A stretch of DNA of 64,000 bases from Hyphomicrobium sp. (GTDB lineage Bacteria; Pseudomonadota; Alphaproteobacteria; Rhizobiales; Hyphomicrobiaceae). The stretch is from positions 124,001-188,000 of the forward strand of contig PERL01000005.1 in NCBI GenBank assembly GCA_002928735.1, read 5' to 3'. The notes beneath the pieces are model-generated. The model was given only the letters and a program-made list of their open reading frames with translations, was not told where the DNA came from and searched no databases. Below are positions 14,732-58,803 of this stretch, one piece after another; positions within the stretch are counted from its first letter, which is position 1; each line of letters begins with the position of its first letter. Position numbers and translations under genes: made by a program.

Positions 14732-15535
14732 GTGGCGGATGCTGAGACGACGCGATCTTCAAGCGTGACACGATGGGTGCCGCTCGTAGTGCTTGTCGCG
14801 GTCATGGCGCTCGTGTTCGGCATGGGCTGGCACCGCCTTTTGTCCTTCGAGACGATCGGGCGGAATTACGCGGAATTGCGCGCGTTCATCGCGTCCAATC
14901 TCGTGGCTGCTCTGGCGATTTATATAGCGCTCTACATTGCCGTGGTGGCGCTGTCGCTGCCCGGCGGGTTGGTGATGACGCTGTCGGGCGGTTTGCTGTT
15001 TGGCTGGAAGATCGGTGCGCCGGCGACGGTGGTTGCGGCGACGGCAGGCGCGGCGGTTCTGTTTCTTATTGCCAAGTCGTCGTTGGGCGAGACGCTCGCT
15101 GCACGCGCGGGGCCTTGGTTGGCGCGGCTGCGAGATGGCTTTCAGGAGAATGCGCTCAGTTACATGCTCTTCCTGCGGCTGGTGCCGGTGTTTCCGTTTT
15201 TTATCGTCAACCTGGCGCCGGCTCTACTTGGCGTGCCGTTTTCGACTTATGTTCTCGGCACGTTTTTCGGGATCATCCCCGGGACGGTCGCGTTTTCGGT
15301 AGCAGGTTCGGGGCTTGGCAGCGTGGTCGAGGCGCAGAATGCTGTGCATGCCGCCTGTTTGGAGCGGCAGTCGCGCGAGCCAAATCTCGATTGCGTCTAT
15401 ACGATCGATACGGGACATCTCATCACCGGCGAGTTGATCGCGGCGTTTGTGCTGATTGGCGTGGTTGCGCTCATCCCGGTTGCCGTCAAGAGATGGAATG
15501 CCCGCAATGGGAGCACACGCAATGAAGCCCAGTGA
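14732..15535 (+). CDS. TVP38/TMEM64 (DedA-like/SNARE-associated) membrane protein
   Basis: 267 residues from GTG 14732, chosen because GGAGGG lies 7 bp upstream; a TTG at 14711 has no such site. It has about five to six membrane helices. The conserved TVP38 signature lies around LPGGLVMTLSGGLLFGWKIGAPATVVAATAGAAVLFLIAKSSLG, followed by FLRLVPVFPFFIVNLAPALLGVPFSTYVLGTFFGIIPGTV. Members act in membrane lipid or anion transport; the exact role here is unknown. It overlaps the following flavoprotein gene by 14 bp. Confidence 0.9.
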   Translation: MADAETTRSSSVTRWVPLVVLVAVMALVFGMGWHRLLSFETIGRNYAELRAFIASNLVAALAIYIALYIAVVALSLPGGLVMTLSGGLLFGWKIGAPATVVAATAGAAVLFLIAKSSLGETLAARAGPWLARLRDGFQENALSYMLFLRLVPVFPFFIVNLAPALLGVPFSTYVLGTFFGIIPGTVAFSVAGSGLGSVVEAQNAVHAACLERQSREPNLDCVYTIDTGHLITGELIAAFVLIGVVALIPVAVKRWNARNGSTRNEAQ

Positions 15536-48541: not shown

Positions 48542-49960
48542 TCACGGCTTGAGATACCAGCCCCAAGGCTCGGCCGACGTGTAGCTTGTGGTCTGCTTGG
48601 GTTCGAGAAAGTTGTTGAGACCCCACAGACCCAATTCGCGGCCAACGCCGCTCTTCTTGATGCCACCCCAAGGCGGCTCAAGGAAATTTGGTTGCGAGCA
48701 GTTGATCCACACCACTCCGGCCTCCAGCTGTCCCGCCACGCGCTCGGCCCGGTCGAGGTCTGCGGACATGACGGCCGCCGCGAGCCCGAATTCGGTGTCG
48801 TTGGCCAATTGCAGCGCTTCGGCTTCGGTGTCGAACGCCGCCATTGACAGGACGGGTCCAAAAATCTCTTCCTTCCAGATCCGAGCTTGCGGCGGCACAT
48901 CCACGAAAATGGTGGGCTCGACGAAATAGCCGGCATCCAAGCCGGGGGGCCGCTTGCCACCGCAGACAAGTTTTGCCTCGCGTTGGCCCTCGGCGATATA
49001 GCCGAGCACCTTGTCGTATTGCGGCTTGCTGACCAAAGGGCCGAGCAGTACGCCCGCGTCCATGCCGTCGCCGATGGTGATTTTGCCGGCTTCGGCGACA
49101 AGCCGCTCGATCAAGCGCGGGGCCATCGATCGCTGCACGATCAAGCGCGAGGTCGCGCTGCACACTTGGCCCTGGTTCCAGAAAATGCCGAACATGACCC
49201 ACTCGACGACTTGCTCGAGATCGGCATCGTCGAACACAATGATGGGCGATTTTCCGCCCAGTTCCAGGCTCACGCTCTTGATGTCGCGTGCGGCGGCCAA
49301 AGCGACGTTGACCCCCGTCGCCACTGAGCCCGTGAACGCAAGTTTGCGCACGCCGGGATGGGCGGCGAGCCGCGCGCCTGCTTCGCGCCCGTAGCCCGTA
49401 ACGACGTTGAGCACCCCGCCGGGCAGCCCCACGTCCCGGGCGATGCGCGCCAATTCCAGCGCCGTCAGGGAGGTGAATTCGGAGGGCTTTAGAACCATTG
49501 TGCATCCCGCCGCAATCGCGGGCGCGACTTTCCACGCGGCCATGAGGAGCGGGTAATTCCATGGCACGATCAGTCCCGCCACGCCGGACGGCATATACGT
49601 TACGCGGGTTTCGAACCGCGCATCGGGAACAGTGATGCGTTCGCCCTGCCGGTGATCGAGATCTTCCGCGTAGGTGGCGTAGAGATTGAAGCAGTAGGCG
49701 GCGTCGGATATGTCGCCTAAGGCTTCAGGCAGTGGTTTGCCGTTGTCGCGCACCTCCAACGCCGCAAGGGTCTGCTTCTCAGTCTCGATCATCTCGGCGA
49801 TTGCGCGGAGGAAGAAGGCCCGCTCCCGCCCGCTTGTGCCGCGCCATGCACCGGCCAGCGCCGCCTTAGCGTTTGCCACGGCGCGGTCAACGTCCTCCTC
49901 AGTCCCCTGCGGGATTGTGGTGAAAGCTTTTTCCGTCGCTGGGTTGATGACCTCTATCAT
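48542..49960 (-). CDS. Aldehyde dehydrogenase (NAD(P)-dependent)
   Basis: 472 residues from ATG 49960, preceded by GAGGACC; the longer frame to 50065 would overlap the aminotransferase gene. Key motifs: MPSGVAGLIVPWNYPLLMA, KLAFTGSVATGVNV, SLELGGKSPIIVFDDADLE (catalytic Glu) and NQGQVCSATSRLIVQ (catalytic Cys). The C-terminal WINCSQPNFLEPPWGGIKKSG is of the betaine-aldehyde type, so the substrate is probably an aminoaldehyde or short aldehyde (inference). It follows the class III PLP enzyme gene by 31 bp, in the same operon. Confidence 0.93.
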   Translation of the reverse strand: MIEVINPATEKAFTTIPQGTEEDVDRAVANAKAALAGAWRGTSGRERAFFLRAIAEMIETEKQTLAALEVRDNGKPLPEALGDISDAAYCFNLYATYAEDLDHRQGERITVPDARFETRVTYMPSGVAGLIVPWNYPLLMAAWKVAPAIAAGCTMVLKPSEFTSLTALELARIARDVGLPGGVLNVVTGYGREAGARLAAHPGVRKLAFTGSVATGVNVALAAARDIKSVSLELGGKSPIIVFDDADLEQVVEWVMFGIFWNQGQVCSATSRLIVQRSMAPRLIERLVAEAGKITIGDGMDAGVLLGPLVSKPQYDKVLGYIAEGQREAKLVCGGKRPPGLDAGYFVEPTIFVDVPPQARIWKEEIFGPVLSMAAFDTEAEALQLANDTEFGLAAAVMSADLDRAERVAGQLEAGVVWINCSQPNFLEPPWGGIKKSGVGRELGLWGLNNFLEPKQTTSYTSAEPWGWYLKP

Positions 49961-49991
49961 CTGACGGTCCTCGTCTAATGCGTCGGTATAT

Positions 49992-51344
49992 TCATCGGAA
50001 GCTGCCCTTATGCGAGCTGCGAATTGAAGCGGCGAATGCTTCGAGGAAAATGTCGGCGTGGTCACGCCGGAACGCGAGGGGCGGCCTGATTTTCAGAATG
50101 TTGCCATTGATGCCTGCCGTTCCGATCAGCAAGCCCCGCTCGCGCATCGCGTTGACGAGTTGGTCGGCAAGGACCGGGTTGGGCGATTTGGCATCGTCTC
50201 CGGTCACGCATTCGACGCCGATATAGAGACCCGCGCCGCGTACATCGCCGATCTGCGCCGTACCCTTGCCCACGGCCGCGATTTGATCGCGGAGATATTG
50301 GCCGGTCTCGTGCGCGTTCTGTTGGAGGCCTTCAGATTGCAACGTCTCCAAAACCGCCAGCCCGGCAGCGGCTGCAACGGGATTGCCGCCAAACGTATTG
50401 AAGTAGCCGGCGCGATTCCCGAAGTCGGCGAGTAGATCGGGCTTGATGACAACGCCGCCCATTGGGAACCCGTTGCCCATGGGTTTGCCCATGATGACGA
50501 TATCGGGGATGACGCCGTGGCGCTCGAACCCCCACATGTGGCCGCCGGTGCGGCCGAAGCCCGGCTGCACCTCGTCGGCGATGTAAAGGCCGCCTGCGGC
50601 TCGCACGGCGTCCACAGCCTCCTTCAGGAAGCCGCCTTCGCCGGGATAGACGCCGTCGCTGGAAAAGATGCTGTCGGCCATGAATCCGGCAAGCTTGATG
50701 CCGCGTGATGAAAGTTCGTCGATGGCTGTGCGGACGTGGCCGGCAAAGGACTGGGATAGCCCATCGATTCCCCACCGGTAGGTATCGGGGGCTGGAATGA
50801 CGGCGACATGCGGTGGCCGGGGCTCGGCGCTGGCCGAAGATGGTGAGACCTCGGTCACGGCGCTCGTGTTGCCATGATAGGCGTTGGCGGTGACGATGAA
50901 GCCGGTGCCGCCGGTGAGCCCGCGTACCGCGCGCAGGGCGAAGTCGGCGCTCTCTGAACCCGTGCACGTGAAGACAATATTGGAAAGTTCGGACGGCAGG
51001 GTCGCGAGTAGCCGCTCGGCGTAGGTGTAGACGCCGTCGTACAGATAGCGGGTGTGAATGTTGAGAATTCCGATCTGCCGCGAGACGGCGGCGACAACGG
51101 CCGGATGGCAATGGCCGATCGATGGCACGTTATTGTAGGCATCCAACACGCGGGTTCCATCGGCCTCATAGAGCCAGACGCCTTCGGCGCGCACGACGTT
51201 CAGGGGGCGCTTGTAGAACAGCATCGATGTTGGGCCGAACGTCCGGCGGCGGCGTTCGACGAGGCGGGCCGTATCGGGATCTAGCCCGGCCGTCGAGCGC
51301 ATGTCGAAGGCGTTGAGTTCGAGGATTTTCGGCTGGGTGCTCAT
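49992..51344 (-). CDS. Class III PLP-dependent aminotransferase/phospho-lyase
   Basis: 450 residues from ATG 51344. It contains YNNVPSIGHCHPAVVAAVSRQ and LNIHTRYLYDGVYTYAERL, both typical of ethanolamine-phosphate and hydroxylysine-phosphate phospho-lyases. The PLP lysine is in IVIMGKPMGNGFPMGGVV, and DEVQPGFGRTGGHMWGFERH is the adjoining Asp region. These fit a lyase of the AGXT2L group better than a GABA aminotransferase, but activity cannot be decided by eye. The neighbouring kinase and aldehyde dehydrogenase support phospho-lyase. Confidence 0.88.
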   Translation of the reverse strand: MSTQPKILELNAFDMRSTAGLDPDTARLVERRRRTFGPTSMLFYKRPLNVVRAEGVWLYEADGTRVLDAYNNVPSIGHCHPAVVAAVSRQIGILNIHTRYLYDGVYTYAERLLATLPSELSNIVFTCTGSESADFALRAVRGLTGGTGFIVTANAYHGNTSAVTEVSPSSASAEPRPPHVAVIPAPDTYRWGIDGLSQSFAGHVRTAIDELSSRGIKLAGFMADSIFSSDGVYPGEGGFLKEAVDAVRAAGGLYIADEVQPGFGRTGGHMWGFERHGVIPDIVIMGKPMGNGFPMGGVVIKPDLLADFGNRAGYFNTFGGNPVAAAAGLAVLETLQSEGLQQNAHETGQYLRDQIAAVGKGTAQIGDVRGAGLYIGVECVTGDDAKSPNPVLADQLVNAMRERGLLIGTAGINGNILKIRPPLAFRRDHADIFLEAFAASIRSSHKGSFR

Positions 51345-51556
51345 GGGATGTCGATCCGTGACAATCGCGTGTGTCACAGCATACGACGTGACCCGCACGC
51401 TGTCTTGACTGGACCGGCGGCGGCCTGCCAACTCTGGAGCCCTCCGGGTCAAGTCGGCACACCCTGCAAGCATTAGGGTGATCGCTCAAATAGCCGGAGA
51501 GGCGTGCTGCCCACGCCGCATCCGTTGCCATGACCGCTTTGAAGGAGTGGAATCCA

Positions 51557-52333
51557 ATGTCGTCATCACTCGCCGGCCGCTCTGTCATCGTCACCGGGGG
51601 CAGCAAAGGCATCGGCAAAGGCATTGCTCGCGTCTTCGGCAAGGCCGGAGCTAAAGTGCTCATCGTGTCGCGTACCCTCGCCGAGGCGGAAGCTGCGGCG
51701 GAGGAGATTTGCCGCGGCGGCGGCACCGCCAAGGGATTTGCAGCCGATATCTCTGACGCCGGCGGCACACAGATGATGGCCGAGGCGGCGATTGCGGCAT
51801 TCGGCGCGATCGATGTGCTGTGCGCCAACGCCGGCATTTTCCCCCAGGCCAAGATCGAGGATCTGAGTGCGGAGGACTGGGATCACGTGATGTCCACGAA
51901 CCTCAAGGGCACATTCTTGTCTTTGAAATCCTGCCTTCCCTATCTGAAGAAATCCGATCAGCCGCGCGTCGTCATTACGTCGTCGATCACGGGGCCGGTG
52001 ACTGGGTTTCCTGGCTGGACTCACTACGGTGCCAGCAAGGCGGCGCAGCTGGGCTTCATGCGCACCGCCTGCCTCGAGGTCGCCAAATATGGGATCACGG
52101 TCAATGCGGTCCTACCCGGCAACATTCTCACTGAAGGCCTGATCGCGCTTGGCCCGGACTACGAGAAATCCATGGCCGCATCGATCCCGCTGAAAAAGCT
52201 TGGAACCGTTGAAGATATCGGTCACGCGGCGCTGTTCCTCGCATCGAAGGAGGCGGGCTACATCACAGGCCAGACGATCATCGTGGATGGCGGACAAATT
52301 TTGCCCGAGAGCCTCGATGCTTTGAACGCGTGA
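51557..52333 (+). CDS. SDR-family oxidoreductase
   Basis: 258 residues from ATG 51557 (AGGAG about 10 bp upstream; the ATG at 51530 is less likely). Cofactor site TGGSKGIGKGIA, CANAGIF, catalytic Ser in ITSSITGPVTG, YGASKAAQ for Tyr-Lys, and an intact C-terminal YITGQTIIVDGGQILPES. Substrate unknown. It is divergent from the aminotransferase gene, so both may share a control region, and it stops 8 bp before the convergent AraC-type regulator. Confidence 0.92.
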   Translation: MSSSLAGRSVIVTGGSKGIGKGIARVFGKAGAKVLIVSRTLAEAEAAAEEICRGGGTAKGFAADISDAGGTQMMAEAAIAAFGAIDVLCANAGIFPQAKIEDLSAEDWDHVMSTNLKGTFLSLKSCLPYLKKSDQPRVVITSSITGPVTGFPGWTHYGASKAAQLGFMRTACLEVAKYGITVNAVLPGNILTEGLIALGPDYEKSMAASIPLKKLGTVEDIGHAALFLASKEAGYITGQTIIVDGGQILPESLDALNA

Positions 52334-53529: not shown

Positions 53530-54600
53530 TCAGCCAAAAATCCTCTTCCATAACGTTTTGGACGTGCCAGCCGACGCGAATGGACGTGCCGACGCGAACC
53601 GCGAAAGGTAAGCGTGGCAGAGCGGTACGGTGCCTTGCGTGTAGGCCACGCCCATTGATCGGGCGAGATCCGTTTCGGAGTGGGAGCCGATCCAGGCCAC
53701 TAGAAGAATGCGCCGAAGCATGACAAACGTTGCGATCTCCGCCTCTTCCTCGGCGCTCAAGGCGCCGATACGACGGTATCCACGCACCCACGCCTTAATG
53801 AGGTCGGGCACTTCGGTCTCATGTTCAAAAAACGACACCGTCGTTGCGCAGTCGTAGAGATACCAGGAGAAGCCGCAGTCGTCGAAATCGATGACCTTCA
53901 CTTTGCCGCCGTCCATCAAGAGGTTGGCAAGCCGCATATCGCCATGCACCAGCCCGAACACAGCGTCGCCCTTGCCGATGCCGCGCAACCGCTGTTCGAT
54001 GACCGACACCGTTTCGGCCAAGACCGCCTCGATCTCCGGCGTCATGCCCATGCCGTCGCGCCACCGGCCCCAGTGCGGCGCGTTTCCAATACTGGTTTCG
54101 AAGTCCCACACGTGGCGCTCAAACCACGGGGGGCGGCTCCAGTTCTTTACATGGGCGTGCATGCGCGCCGCCGTTTCGCCGAGTTTTTCGAATCCGGCCA
54201 CGTCGTTCGCGGCCGGTTCCGCACCCTCCTCCCAACCGAACAGCACGACGTTGCGCGGTAACGCGCCGTCGAGCGCTAGTGTTTGGATAAAGTCACCGTC
54301 GAGACCTGGTACGGGTGCTGGCGTCGTGATCGTTCCGCTTTGTTTGAGCGAGCGCACCCAGGCTAGTTCGGAGGCGATAGCGCGACGGGAGTGATAGCCG
54401 TCCCGGTGCACGCGAAGCGCCCATCGGCCGCCAGACGCGGGATCATCGACCCGATATGTGATGTTCTCGGAGATATTGATCAGCGTGACGGTGGCGGCCG
54501 GAGACAGGCCGTAGCGGCCAAGTGCGCGGATGGCCAGTTGTTCGATCTGGCGGTTGCCAGACTGTGGGCCCGCGGTGCCGACTAGAGCATTTTGGTCCAT
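53530..54600 (-). CDS. APH-family phosphotransferase (amino-alcohol or hydroxylysine kinase type)
   Basis: 356 residues from ATG 54600; the longer open frame lacks a coding look. The kinase motifs are LVHGDMRLANLLMDGG (catalytic loop HGD) and VKVIDFDDCGFSWYLYD (metal-binding D). ITYRVDDPASGGRWALRVHRDGY is the N-lobe. It resembles the AGPHD1/hydroxylysine-kinase branch more than antibiotic kinases. The nearby class III PLP enzyme and aldehyde dehydrogenase suggest it phosphorylates an amino alcohol before beta-elimination (inference). Confidence 0.85.
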   Translation of the reverse strand: MDQNALVGTAGPQSGNRQIEQLAIRALGRYGLSPAATVTLINISENITYRVDDPASGGRWALRVHRDGYHSRRAIASELAWVRSLKQSGTITTPAPVPGLDGDFIQTLALDGALPRNVVLFGWEEGAEPAANDVAGFEKLGETAARMHAHVKNWSRPPWFERHVWDFETSIGNAPHWGRWRDGMGMTPEIEAVLAETVSVIEQRLRGIGKGDAVFGLVHGDMRLANLLMDGGKVKVIDFDDCGFSWYLYDCATTVSFFEHETEVPDLIKAWVRGYRRIGALSAEEEAEIATFVMLRRILLVAWIGSHSETDLARSMGVAYTQGTVPLCHAYLSRFASARPFASAGTSKTLWKRIFG

Positions 54601-54803: not shown

Positions 54804-55940
54804 CTATGGTTTGCCGCCGGCGGTGGCCACCGTCATTTCGTTGCCGCGCCAGGTGAAGCGGTTGCCCATGAAGCCTTGGATCCAGAGCACGGGGAGTGCG
54901 AGATCGCGCGCGAGCCAAGCGGCGGGGGATGCGAGGGTCATGTGCCAGTCCGCGGATTTGGCGAGGGCGGCTTCGGCGCCGTACCAGACGACCCAAAGCG
55001 CGGCGATACTGGCGACAGGGTTTAGGCCGAAGCTTGCGCCAGCATAGGCAGCGGCAAGAGCGGGCGCGAGGCTGCCAGAGAGAATTTCCAATAGGTAGTA
55101 TGGAATGAACGTTGAGCGGCGGAGGCGGGCCCAGCGGACTTGGCGCTGCCAGACCTGAGCAGCGGTCTTGCGTCCCAGGGGCTGCGCATAGGGGCGGTCG
55201 ACGAGGCGGACACGAAGGCCGCGCTGACGGACGATCTTGGTGGCGGCCGCATCTTCAGCGATTTCCAGTGCGAGTGCGCCGATGCCGCCAGCTTCATCGA
55301 GATCGGATTTTTTCCAGAGCATCGACTTGCCTTGGGCAAAGCCGAAACCGAACGCGTCGGCGGCGAGCTGCCAGCGGGCTTGATAGGTGTTGAGGAAGGC
55401 GCATTCCATTTCGGCCCAGGCGCCATCGGGTTGGCTGCCGACGGGGGGCGAGCAGACGAGGCCCGTTCCCGACCGGAAGGCTGCCAACATTTCACCGATG
55501 TAGGTGGGCGGCATCAGAACATTGCTGTCGGCCATGATGACCCACGGCGTGGTGGCGGCGTTCCAGCCTTTGATCAGGTTGTTAAGTTTAGGATTGGGCG
55601 TGGAGCGGTCGTCGCCGATTAAGAGGCGCGACCGGATACCGGGATACTGCTGCATGAGCGCGCGGACGAGCGGAACGGCGGGATCGTGCTCGCGGGCCGA
55701 GCAGAAGATGATCTCGTAGTTGGGATGATCGAGATGAAATGTGGTTCTCAGCGTGGCTTCGTCGAAGGGGTCTAGGCCGCAAATGGGGCGGAGGATCGTG
55801 ACCGGTTCGGCGTTCCATCTAGCGCGGCTGGGTGCGCGGTTCGGTTTCAGCGTGCGGACGATGCCGATTCCCGTCGTTAACAGATGGACCAGAAGTGCGC
55901 TGGCGGTGAAAATCAGAGCTGTGACGGTCAGTGCGTCCAT
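54804..55940 (-). CDS. Ceramide-glucosyltransferase-like lipid glycosyltransferase (GT21)
   Basis: 378 residues. An N-terminal membrane helix (TVTALIFTASALLVHLLTTGIGI), then a GT-A domain with ADSNVLMPPTYIG, EIAEDAAATKIV and the QxxRW motif in QVRWARLRR. Hydrophobic C-terminal helices follow (GSLAPALAAAYAGASFGLN; VASIAALWVVWYGAEAALA). It glycosylates a lipid acceptor such as diacylglycerol. It follows btaB by 42 bp, in the same direction, as in phosphate-stress glycolipid operons. Confidence 0.85.
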   Translation of the reverse strand: MDALTVTALIFTASALLVHLLTTGIGIVRTLKPNRAPSRARWNAEPVTILRPICGLDPFDEATLRTTFHLDHPNYEIIFCSAREHDPAVPLVRALMQQYPGIRSRLLIGDDRSTPNPKLNNLIKGWNAATTPWVIMADSNVLMPPTYIGEMLAAFRSGTGLVCSPPVGSQPDGAWAEMECAFLNTYQARWQLAADAFGFGFAQGKSMLWKKSDLDEAGGIGALALEIAEDAAATKIVRQRGLRVRLVDRPYAQPLGRKTAAQVWQRQVRWARLRRSTFIPYYLLEILSGSLAPALAAAYAGASFGLNPVASIAALWVVWYGAEAALAKSADWHMTLASPAAWLARDLALPVLWIQGFMGNRFTWRGNEMTVATAGGKP

Positions 55941-55982
55941 GGCGGTCGTCCTTCAATCGGAGTCGCAGCGCGGCAATCCGAT

Positions 55983-56642
55983 CTAGATCTTGCGCGTGAG
56001 CACGGCGTAGTCGGTGTAGCCGCGATGCATTCGGCTAAACGAGAGCGTGAGGCCTTTGGTTGCCGCGACGCGGCGGCAGACGTTTTCGAGATCGGGGCGC
56101 GGTGTGACGGTATAGTGGTTGAGAAAGGCGAACAGCGCGGTTTTGAATGCGCCGGGCAGACGGCCACATTGGCCGAAGTCGACGATGTGGAGGCTGCCGC
56201 CGGGGGCGGTGTGCGCGGCGCCGATATCGAGGGCTTCCTGCCAACCGGGAATCATCGACAGGGCGTAGGAGAAGACGACACGGTCGAATTGGGGGATGCC
56301 GATGGCGTCTGCGGCAGAGAAGGCCGTTGCGTCGGCCTGGGCGACTTGGATGCGCCGGGCGAGGCGCTTGCGCTCGATGGATGCGCGGGCCGTGTCGAGC
56401 ATCGCGTTGGAGACGTCGACGCCATAAATGTTCGCAGCCGGATAGCGTTCGGCGATGCGGATCAGGTTCCACGCCGTGCCGCAGCCGATTTCAAGGATCG
56501 TTTCGCCCGGATTGGGCTTTAGATCCGTAATCAAGTGCTTGCGGCCGATCAGATAGTGGGTGCGCGTTAGGTCGTAGATGAAGCGCTGATAGCGGTAGTG
56601 CCGATCCATGCGCTCTGCGTCGGATGGGCGTGTCGACGTCAT
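55983..56642 (-). CDS. btaB: Betaine-lipid N-methyltransferase BtaB
   Basis: 219 residues. The SAM motif is ILEIGCGTAWNLIRIAERYP, with YGVDVSNAMLDTARASI and VVFSYALSMIPGWQEAL. It methylates diacylglycerylhomoserine three times to give DGTS. The start overlaps the btaA stop by one base. As expected for BtaB, it lies next to btaA and lacks membrane segments. Confidence 0.9.
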   Translation of the reverse strand: MTSTRPSDAERMDRHYRYQRFIYDLTRTHYLIGRKHLITDLKPNPGETILEIGCGTAWNLIRIAERYPAANIYGVDVSNAMLDTARASIERKRLARRIQVAQADATAFSAADAIGIPQFDRVVFSYALSMIPGWQEALDIGAAHTAPGGSLHIVDFGQCGRLPGAFKTALFAFLNHYTVTPRPDLENVCRRVAATKGLTLSFSRMHRGYTDYAVLTRKI

Positions 56643-57898
56643 CAGGCTTTATCCTTCAAAACGTAGAGGTGGAAACCGCCGTAGATCGCCGAGCGGTCGC
56701 GGGCAACCCACGCCCGAGAGGCTTCGGCTGCATAGGTCCACTGGTTCAGGATGGTGTCGGGTATGCGGCCCGGCAAGATGCTCTCCTCGCCGGCGGTGCG
56801 GAAAATAACGCGGGCTCCCGGGCGGGCGGTGCGGGTGATTTCGGTCCACAGCTCGGTGAGGACAGCGTCGTTCATCCAGTCTTGTGCATCGAGCAGAACG
56901 TAGCGGTCGAGGTGCTGGGCCGGCAGGGCGCGCAGCTGTTCGGTGTAGGACATATTGCGCATGTGGATGCGCGACGCGCGCGCGCGGATGGCTTCGTAAT
57001 TCTCAGGCTGCAAGTAGATCGGCAGCGGACCCTTCTCGTCTGACGCATAGCCTCGGTTGAAGGCCTGCCAGGCGAAGTAGTTGTCTTTAAGGTCGAAGCC
57101 GCAGGCAAGGCGAGCAAGGCGCTCTTCGACGACCTCATGCATGGGGCGGCCGCCGGAGAGCGCATCGTACTGGGCGGGCGGAATACCGAGGCCGAAGAGC
57201 GACGAGCGTAGATTCAAAATGGCGCGGACGGCGCGCTTCTCGAAAAGTGGCTTCAATTCGCGGGCATAGATTTCGCGCTGTTCTTCGAGCGTGGTGGCCT
57301 TGAGTATGTTGCGCGGGTCGCGGCCGTAGAGCTTGGCGGCAGTATGGCCAGCGGCGATGAAGCGGCCGAGAAGGCCGTAGCGGTAGAAGCCGCGTGCGAA
57401 GCGCTCAATGTTGCGGCGGCCGGTGATGTCCCGGCTGTTCCAGAACGTGCGCGTGACGTCATCGAGGCGGTCGCTGATGTGGGTGTCGAAGAGCGCGACG
57501 TTCGATTTCTTGTCGGCGGCGCCGAAGAAGGCGTAAAATGAGTCGTAATCGGGAAGGTGGCGCAGGGCCGCATTTTTGAGGCGGTTCAGGGCTGCGTGCG
57601 ATGCGTTAAGGTCAACGGCGATTATTTCGGCTGGGTCGGCGACCAGATAGGAGAGCGCGTTGCACCCGCCGGATGCGATCGTGATGACGCGGTGGCCGCT
57701 TTCAATCCGCAGGGCTTCGAGATCGACGACCGGGTCTTCCCAGATTTGGGGATAGACGAGACTGGAGAACGCGAACGTGAATGCGCGTTCGTTGAGGCCA
57801 GCAATGGAGAATAGACCGTTTTGTTGAACGGCTGCGCCGACCAGCGTGCTGCTCTTGCGGCGCGGGAGTTCGGCGGCATCAATTTCGGCTGGGTTCAT
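56642..57898 (-). CDS. btaA: SAM:diacylglycerol 3-amino-3-carboxypropyltransferase BtaA (DUF3419)
   Basis: 418 residues, full length. It has LVYPQIWEDPVVDLEALRIESGHRVITIASGGCNALSYLVADPAEIIAVDLN, the BtaA/DUF3419 signature with a SAM-binding fold. DAQDWMNDAVLTELWTEITRTARPGARVIFRTA follows near the C-terminus. It moves the aminocarboxypropyl group of SAM to diacylglycerol, the first step of betaine-lipid (DGTS) synthesis. It lies 11 bp after plcP. Confidence 0.95.
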   Translation of the reverse strand: MNPAEIDAAELPRRKSSTLVGAAVQQNGLFSIAGLNERAFTFAFSSLVYPQIWEDPVVDLEALRIESGHRVITIASGGCNALSYLVADPAEIIAVDLNASHAALNRLKNAALRHLPDYDSFYAFFGAADKKSNVALFDTHISDRLDDVTRTFWNSRDITGRRNIERFARGFYRYGLLGRFIAAGHTAAKLYGRDPRNILKATTLEEQREIYARELKPLFEKRAVRAILNLRSSLFGLGIPPAQYDALSGGRPMHEVVEERLARLACGFDLKDNYFAWQAFNRGYASDEKGPLPIYLQPENYEAIRARASRIHMRNMSYTEQLRALPAQHLDRYVLLDAQDWMNDAVLTELWTEITRTARPGARVIFRTAGEESILPGRIPDTILNQWTYAAEASRAWVARDRSAIYGGFHLYVLKDKA

Positions 57899-57909
57899 GG
57901 GGAGCTTTC

Positions 57910-58731
57910 TTAGGCCGCTTCGGACAATGAGCCGTCTGGCGGGGCGCTATCGGGTTTCGCAATAAGACCGGCATTGCGCGCTGGAATTTGCCAGTGGATC
58001 ACTTTGATCTCGCCGGAATGGGTTTCGACGAGCGCGGTGGCGCTTTCGACCCAATCGCCGCAATTGAGATAGTGGACGCCGTCGATCATGCGGTCGGCCG
58101 CATGATGGATGTGGCCGCAGATGACGCCATCGACGTCATAGCGCCGGGCTACACCAGACAGCGCCGTTTCGAATTCGCCGATGAAGTTGACGGCCGATTT
58201 CACGCGGCTCTTGAGGTAGCTGGAGAGTGACCAGTAGCCGAGGCCACATTTGTTGCGCAGCCAGTTCAGGGGCGCGTTGGCCCACAAGGCCAGCTCGTAG
58301 CCACGGTCGCCGAGGAAGGCGAGCCACTTGGCATAGCGTACGACGATATCGAACTCGTCGCCATGAAGGACGACGTATTTCTTGCCGGCGGCGGACTCGA
58401 AAATTGCGTCGCGTCGGATTTCAATGCTGCCGAAATTCAGGCCGCAATAGTCGCGCAGGCCTTCGTCGTGATTTCCGGGGATATAGATAACGCGCGATCC
58501 CTTGCGGGCTTTGCGGAGCAGCTTTTGTATGACGTCGTTGTGAGATTGTGCCCAGACGGGGCCGCGGCGGACTTTCCAGAAATCGACGATATCGCCGACG
58601 AGATAATATGTGTCGGCGTCGACGCGCTTGAGGAAATCCAACAGGGCCGGAGCCTGGGCGGCACGGGTGCCGAGGTGAACATCGGAAATGAAAACCGTGC
58701 GGTAATTCATTTCGGCGCAGGCGTCGGTCAC
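57910..58731 (-). CDS. plcP: Metallophosphoesterase, PlcP-type phospholipase C
   Basis: 273 residues. The calcineurin-like metal ligands are complete: FISDVHLGT, LVGDIVDFWKVRRGP, YIPGNHDEGLRDY, VLHGDEFD and VICGHIHHA. The sequence is close to PlcP, which removes phosphocholine or similar headgroups from phospholipids to release diacylglycerol in phosphate starvation. UDP-2,3-diacylglucosamine hydrolase (LpxH-like) is an alternative by fold. The operon with btaA-btaB favours PlcP. ATG at 58710 is another possible start. A Pho-box-like site lies upstream. Confidence 0.87.
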   Translation of the reverse strand: MTDACAEMNYRTVFISDVHLGTRAAQAPALLDFLKRVDADTYYLVGDIVDFWKVRRGPVWAQSHNDVIQKLLRKARKGSRVIYIPGNHDEGLRDYCGLNFGSIEIRRDAIFESAAGKKYVVLHGDEFDIVVRYAKWLAFLGDRGYELALWANAPLNWLRNKCGLGYWSLSSYLKSRVKSAVNFIGEFETALSGVARRYDVDGVICGHIHHAADRMIDGVHYLNCGDWVESATALVETHSGEIKVIHWQIPARNAGLIAKPDSAPPDGSLSEAA

Positions 58732-58785
58732 AGGGCGCCTCGATTCGCTGCTTCTCTCATACGTGAGGGAGAAAGACGAATTTGT

Positions 58786-58803
58786 GTTTCAGGCGTGTGA
58801 CAG
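58786..58803 (-). promoter_or_regulatory. Pho-box-like site upstream of plcP-btaA-btaB
   Basis: On the minus strand CTGTCACACGCCTGAAAC matches the PhoB box CTGTCAT-N4-CTGTCA(T/C) well: the first half is perfect allowing C at the last base, the second keeps 5 of 7. It lies 55 bp before the plcP start. It fits induction by phosphate starvation. Confidence 0.55.

Follow-up and report, generated by a model that had tools for sequence, protein, structure and literature searches.

The four genes analysed here, found in a genome of Hyphomicrobium sp., raise the question of whether they form an operon devoted to the remodelling of membrane lipids when phosphate is scarce. In the initial annotation, made on a stretch of 64,000 nt (the window; Table 1), they had been read as a complete operon containing plcP, btaA, btaB and a gene for a GT21 glycosyltransferase, preceded by a Pho box and active under phosphate starvation. 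Our analysis indicates that this locus is, with high probability, a PhoB-controlled membrane-remodelling operon, for which we infer the binding of PhoB, the co-transcription of the genes and the exact lipid products. The 3.34-Mb assembly (30 contigs; G000), whose nearest named relatives are Hyphomicrobium MAGs, was compared with five congeneric genomes (G001-G005), and genome-wide questions were approached through pattern searches.

Table 1. Features of the locus and its surroundings; positions are those of the window unless a contig is given.
Feature	Position	Strand	Description
Window	GCA_002928735.1, contig PERL01000005.1, 124,001-188,000	forward	64,000-nt stretch of Hyphomicrobium sp. hosting the operon
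Promoter island	58768-58803	-	Conserved, 36 bp, upstream of plcP; aligned in 6/6 congeneric genomes
Pho box	58786-58803	-	CTGTCAC-ACGC-CTGAAAC (CTGTCACACGCCTGAAAC), putative PhoB dimer site; 12/14 to consensus
Possible -10	58770-58775	-	CTTTCT; suggested by position in the box-anchored promoter alignment
Candidate RBS	58738-58741	-	GAGG, 6 nt 5' of the plcP GTG start; direct reading
plcP	57910-58731	-	Predicted intracellular phospholipase C, calcineurin-like metallophosphoesterase
btaA	56642-57898	-	Predicted SAM:diacylglycerol 3-amino-3-carboxypropyl transferase; PF11899, 3e-109
btaB	55983-56642	-	Predicted N-methyltransferase completing DGTS; Methyltransf_25
GT21 gene	54804-55940	-	Predicted Pgt-type diacylglycerol galactosyl/glucosyl transferase; PF13506, 2e-56
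APH-type kinase	53530-54600	-	Phospho-lyase cluster
Phospho-lyase-like protein	49992-51344	-	Nearest to O-phosphoethanolamine phospho-lyases (5g4i, 6tor)
Aldehyde dehydrogenase	48542-50065	-	Phospho-lyase cluster

Organisation of the operon

The four open reading frames are intact and follow one another, in the direction of transcription, as plcP, btaA, btaB and the GT21 gene. Only 11 nt separate plcP from btaA, the btaA stop overlaps btaB by 1 nt, and 42 nt lie between btaB and the GT21 gene. No terminator-like site was found on the minus strand between any of these genes, the sole one detected in the scan of the operon being a 5-bp stem within btaA. The start of plcP has been placed at the GTG at 58731, with an alternative ATG at 58710.

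Identity of the enzymes

PlcP matches PF00149 (Metallophos; 1e-15, above the cut-off) and conserves the metal-binding motifs DVH, GDIVD, GNH, GDEFD and HIH. Its nearest solved structure is LpxH (2e-6), while for the GT21 protein the best NCBIfam model is HpnI and the nearest solved structure is a ceramide glucosyltransferase (2e-38) belonging to the same CAZy family. These resemblances would suit a cluster unrelated to phosphate, composed of an LpxH-like lipid A enzyme and an HpnI or ceramide glycosyltransferase. However, PlcP reaches 46 bits with the LpxH models, whose curated cut-offs are 134 and 190, and the GT21 protein 172 bits with HpnI, whose cut-off is 310, and both identities were rejected on this basis; plcP and btaAB are clustered in many genomes, and Pho-like boxes accompany stand-alone GT21 orthologues far above chance, so that this explanation can hardly be sustained. 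PlcP is better described as a calcineurin-like metallophosphoesterase distinct from LpxH which, by analogy with its counterparts, would release diacylglycerol from phospholipid in this organism.

The assignment of BtaA relies on its DUF3419 domain (PF11899, the BtaA family; 366 bits against a cut-off of 28) and on the neighbouring btaB, which adjoins btaA in all 34 related btaA loci. The product of btaB falls among the class I SAM methyltransferases (PF13649, 1e-16); this being a general methyltransferase model, not specific for BtaB, its probable identity rests on the pairing with btaA.

The glycosyltransferase contains a Glyco_transf_21 domain (PF13506, 191 bits against a cut-off of 22) with the (Q/R)xxRW motif as RQVRW at residue 266, and shares some 50% identity with GT21 proteins of Mesorhizobium, among which the characterised Pgt may figure. 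Agt, represented by Atu2297 and the SAR11 enzyme, belongs to GT4 and carries the motifs GRVAxEKN and FPSxTDTFG, whereas Pgt belongs to GT21 (PMC8231724). Since the literature separates both enzymes in this way, the operon protein, which does not display the GT4 fold with GRVxxEKN and FPSxTDTFG, is on sequence grounds Pgt-type, i.e., a processive galactosyl/glucosyl-diacylglycerol synthase, and the name agt has been discarded for its gene. The sugar donor and acceptor would be those expected for the family. Judged by sequence alone, the location of the gene in an operon behind a Pho box points to the phosphate-starvation control proper to Pgt. Outside the genus, 28 genomes with stand-alone GT21 orthologues were compared, and in 16 of them a Pho-like box scoring at least 11/14 lies within 300 bp upstream of the gene; random stretches taken from these loci reach that score in about 4% of cases. 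The figure serves as a guide and not as a probability, related genomes being non-independent. These boxes fit what would be expected of a phosphate-starvation enzyme.

The promoter of plcP and its regulator

The box located 54 nt 5' of the plcP start (58803-58786) matches 12 of the 14 positions of CTGTCAY-N4-CTGTCAY, its second half-site being degenerate. A bare match to the consensus proves nothing, because sites with two or fewer mismatches number 38 in the 3.34-Mb genome and 29 with the reversed-pattern control; in the lack of any Pho-box excess, the whole-genome scan has been rejected as a stand-alone proof. Such numbers would be compatible with a constitutive operon and a box matching by chance. 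However, the conservation of the box, its position and the specificity of the motif make a chance match highly improbable. A score of 12 or more is reached by just 0.6% of random 300-bp stretches, and a 36-bp island, extending from the box to TCTCC, stands out in all six congeneric genomes, while in the three more distant congeners the intergenic DNA flanking it does not align. The pattern STGTCACAYGNNTGAAAC, with one mismatch at most, has exactly nine matches in the six genomes (none with the control), six of them upstream of plcP and three upstream of relocated GT4 genes, with none elsewhere; the matches themselves are expected, since these sites served to build the pattern, and the information resides in the absence of others. 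Outside the genus, a box scoring at least 11/14 lies within 300 bp upstream of plcP in eight of nine genomes (2.8% of random stretches), mostly 63-90 bp before the gene.

Promoters exist in which PhoB replaces the -35 element, and a hexamer 10 bp past the box fits this architecture. In the congeners, the hexamer at the putative -10 position is CTATCT or CTATGT, and throughout the genus a distance of exactly 10 bp separates it from the box upstream. The plcP promoter combines CTGTCAY-like half-sites, an 11-bp register, a spacing of about 10 bp to a possible -10, and conservation among relatives.

Regarding the regulator, a PhoB above the TIGR02154 cut-off is encoded in the six congeneric genomes, and in this one phoB forms part of a phoR-pstS-pstC-pstA-pstB-phoU-phoB locus. 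The box upstream of pstS (CTGTCAYAAAAGRTTTG; locus L103, pstS at 15505 on the minus strand) is present in 6/6 genomes, with one minor variant (L108); it has the CTGTCAY half-site in common with the plcP box and a different second half. This difference in shape, together with the restriction of CTGTCACAYGNNTGAAAC to the regions upstream of plcP and GT4 in the six genomes, could indicate that the operon does remodel lipids, with its island binding a dedicated regulator other than PhoB. Against this proposal, which we regard as quite unlikely, it has to be noted that the first half-site and the 11-bp register are PhoB-like, that outside the genus the second halves at the same position are CTGCAAY or CTGATAY, that the stand-alone GT21 gene of G004 is preceded by four near-canonical repeats spaced by 11 bp, and that plcP and btaAB have been tied to PhoB in Sinorhizobium (PMC3972451). 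The most probable regulator of the plcP island, and the protein expected to bind it, is PhoB.

In consequence, the Pho box of the initial annotation is upheld, through its conservation, position and specificity and not through the consensus match; it is convincing only because of the comparison across genomes. The regulation by phosphate starvation postulated at the same time is supported by the phylogenetic footprint, by the relocated genes bearing the same box, and by the presence of phoB-pst in the genome.

Pho-like sites were also observed at other positions of this genome. One of them, CTGTCATCGACGAGTCAT (L089 1501-1518; G000:C11:43146), precedes by 67 bp an ORF of 465 aa whose start resembles a signal peptide; this ORF, which might encode a porin, is a possible further Pho target. 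Another one, CAGTCATCAAACAGTCAT (L072 1501-1518; G000:C4:47489), precedes by 68 bp an ORF for a membrane protein of 483 aa, and a second Pho-like site (L073) lies 2 bp from it on the opposite strand.

Glycosyltransferase genes across the genus

A GT4 gene is inserted between plcP and btaA in G002, G004 and G005, and the plcP-GT4-btaA order also occurs in a genome of another family (G059). In the genome studied here the GT4 gene (72% identical) is located on contig C14, at 51302-52306, and its product carries the Agt motifs GRVSREKN and FPSRTDTFG, which identify this separate protein as Agt-type. Upstream of it (G000:C14:51200-52306; L123 1399-1416, with the gene from 1501 onward) lies CTGTCACACGTGTGAAAC, nearly the plcP box CTGTCACACGCCTGAAAC, and the relocated GT4 has its own box in G003 and G001 as well. 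The reverse situation is found in G004, whose operon is devoid of GT21 and whose GT21 gene stands alone elsewhere, behind four half-sites in perfect 11-bp register (CCGTCAC-AAAC-CTGACGT-CCAA-TTGTCAT-GTAG-CTGATAC; L133 2671-2710); the GT21 copies located in the operon group together in a single clade (100/99), with the G004 copy outside.

Thus, the genus constitutes a natural experiment in which glycosyltransferase genes move into and out of the operon. In the genus genomes, those lying outside it are each equipped with a Pho-like box of their own, and therefore membership of the regulon should be predictable from sequence. A candidate member, OlsB, was rejected on these grounds: a PF13444 gene exists in 6/6 genomes, but no box of at least 12/14 was found near it.

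Regarding the locus as first described, the packing and order of the four genes hold, with intact frames and exact coordinates, and their identities, at the level of families, are supported, as is the operon layout. A four-gene operon stands; calling it complete is too strong, because the gene for the Agt-type GT4 is at another place in the genome, where a near-identical box precedes it. The lipid-remodelling set is a dispersed five-enzyme regulon.

Proposed pathway and comparison with known systems

The functions of PlcP, BtaAB, Pgt and Agt have been established in Sinorhizobium, Phaeobacter, Agrobacterium, Mesorhizobium and SAR11 (PMC4796936, PMC3972451, PMC8231724), and deletion of plcP abolishes DGTS in Phaeobacter (PMC4796936). 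Taking these enzymes as a reference for every chemical step, the following sequence can be proposed for this organism. Low phosphate would activate PhoR/PhoB, and PhoB would bind the box at 58786-58803, which would substitute for a -35 element and is followed, 10 bp further on, by a putative weak -10; plcP-btaA-btaB-GT21 would then be transcribed as a single unit. PlcP would then split phospholipids into diacylglycerol and the phospho-headgroup; BtaA and BtaB would convert diacylglycerol into the betaine lipid DGTS, and the Pgt-type GT21 would transfer galactose and/or glucose onto diacylglycerol, yielding neutral glycolipids. The distant Agt-type GT4, behind its near-identical box, would contribute glucosyl or glucuronosyl lipids. 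Under this scheme the operon would dismantle phospholipids and turn them into betaine and sugar lipids that contain no phosphorus. The expected set comprises DGTS, Pgt-type glycolipids and Agt-type glucosyl/glucuronosyl lipids.

Clusters of plcP with btaAB, agt or other glycosyltransferase genes, together with Pho boxes, have already been published (PMC4796936). In the account of cluster types given there by Sebastian et al. (2016), type 1, from Phaeobacter sp. MED193, presents plcP followed by btaA and btaB, as here, and Pho boxes are likewise reported upstream of plcP-cluster genes; the locus of this work differs in having GT21 added downstream and in its host, which is Hyphomicrobium-type and not a marine roseobacter. 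In types 3 and 5, described there as well, plcP precedes other glycosyltransferase genes; these types share with the present locus the supply of PlcP-derived diacylglycerol to an adjacent glycosyltransferase, one of which was shown to make di- and tri-glycosyl diacylglycerols (Mesorhizobium loti; Devers et al. 2011), whereas here btaAB is interposed between both genes. Type 2 (plcP-agt), known from SAR11 and Methylosinus trichosporium OB3b (PMC9239053; for the biochemistry of Agt, PMC8231724) and general in type II methanotrophs (PMC9239053), also couples PlcP to a diacylglycerol glycosyltransferase and is induced by low phosphate, as predicted here; however, the glycosyltransferase of the operon described here is GT21 and not a GT4 Agt, the Agt-type gene being on contig C14. 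Homologues of PlcP, BtaAB, Pgt and Agt all participate in the phosphate-starvation lipids of Agrobacterium tumefaciens, where Pho control has been predicted for pgt and is expected for btaAB, but in that species they do not lie together (atu1649, atu2119-2120, atu2297; PMC3972451), while here four of them are contiguous.

Of the six genus genomes, three have the contiguous plcP-btaA-btaB-GT21 arrangement and two more have it with GT4 inserted; among the sampled genomes it is restricted to this genus, since at 28 GT21 loci from the rest of the order btaB was beside GT21 in none and plcP in one. Known components may thus be combined here in a novel way. Taking into account that the enzymes and their logic are known from other bacteria, the locus is a well-supported new example and not a new mechanism. 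The evidence on its regulation is strong, and with it the range of PlcP-driven lipid remodelling is extended to the Hyphomicrobium group.

Genes downstream of the operon

Downstream of the operon, on the same strand, lies a cluster encoding a phospho-lyase-like protein, an aldehyde dehydrogenase, an APH-type kinase and an AraC regulator. The first of these is close to 5g4i (9e-111) and human ETNPPL (3e-95), the next families being at about 1e-52. Since PlcP acting on phosphatidylethanolamine would release phosphoethanolamine, a link can be envisaged in which this cluster would split it into phosphate, ammonia and acetaldehyde, closing a phosphate salvage route. If true, the cluster would fill a step that an Agrobacterium review assigns to "yet unknown phosphatases" (PMC3972451). 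This link is weak and improbable: among the six genus genomes the cluster and the operon are neighbours in just two, G000 and the closely related G003, while G002 and G005 lack the phospho-lyase, and the search for a Pho box ahead of its gene gave none. As a part of the regulon, the cluster is thus unsupported by either synteny or box.

As regards the composition of the window, the GC content falls to 0.48-0.54 between 20001 and 28000, the initial 20 kb and the final 16 kb being at about 0.61, and this segment was possibly acquired.
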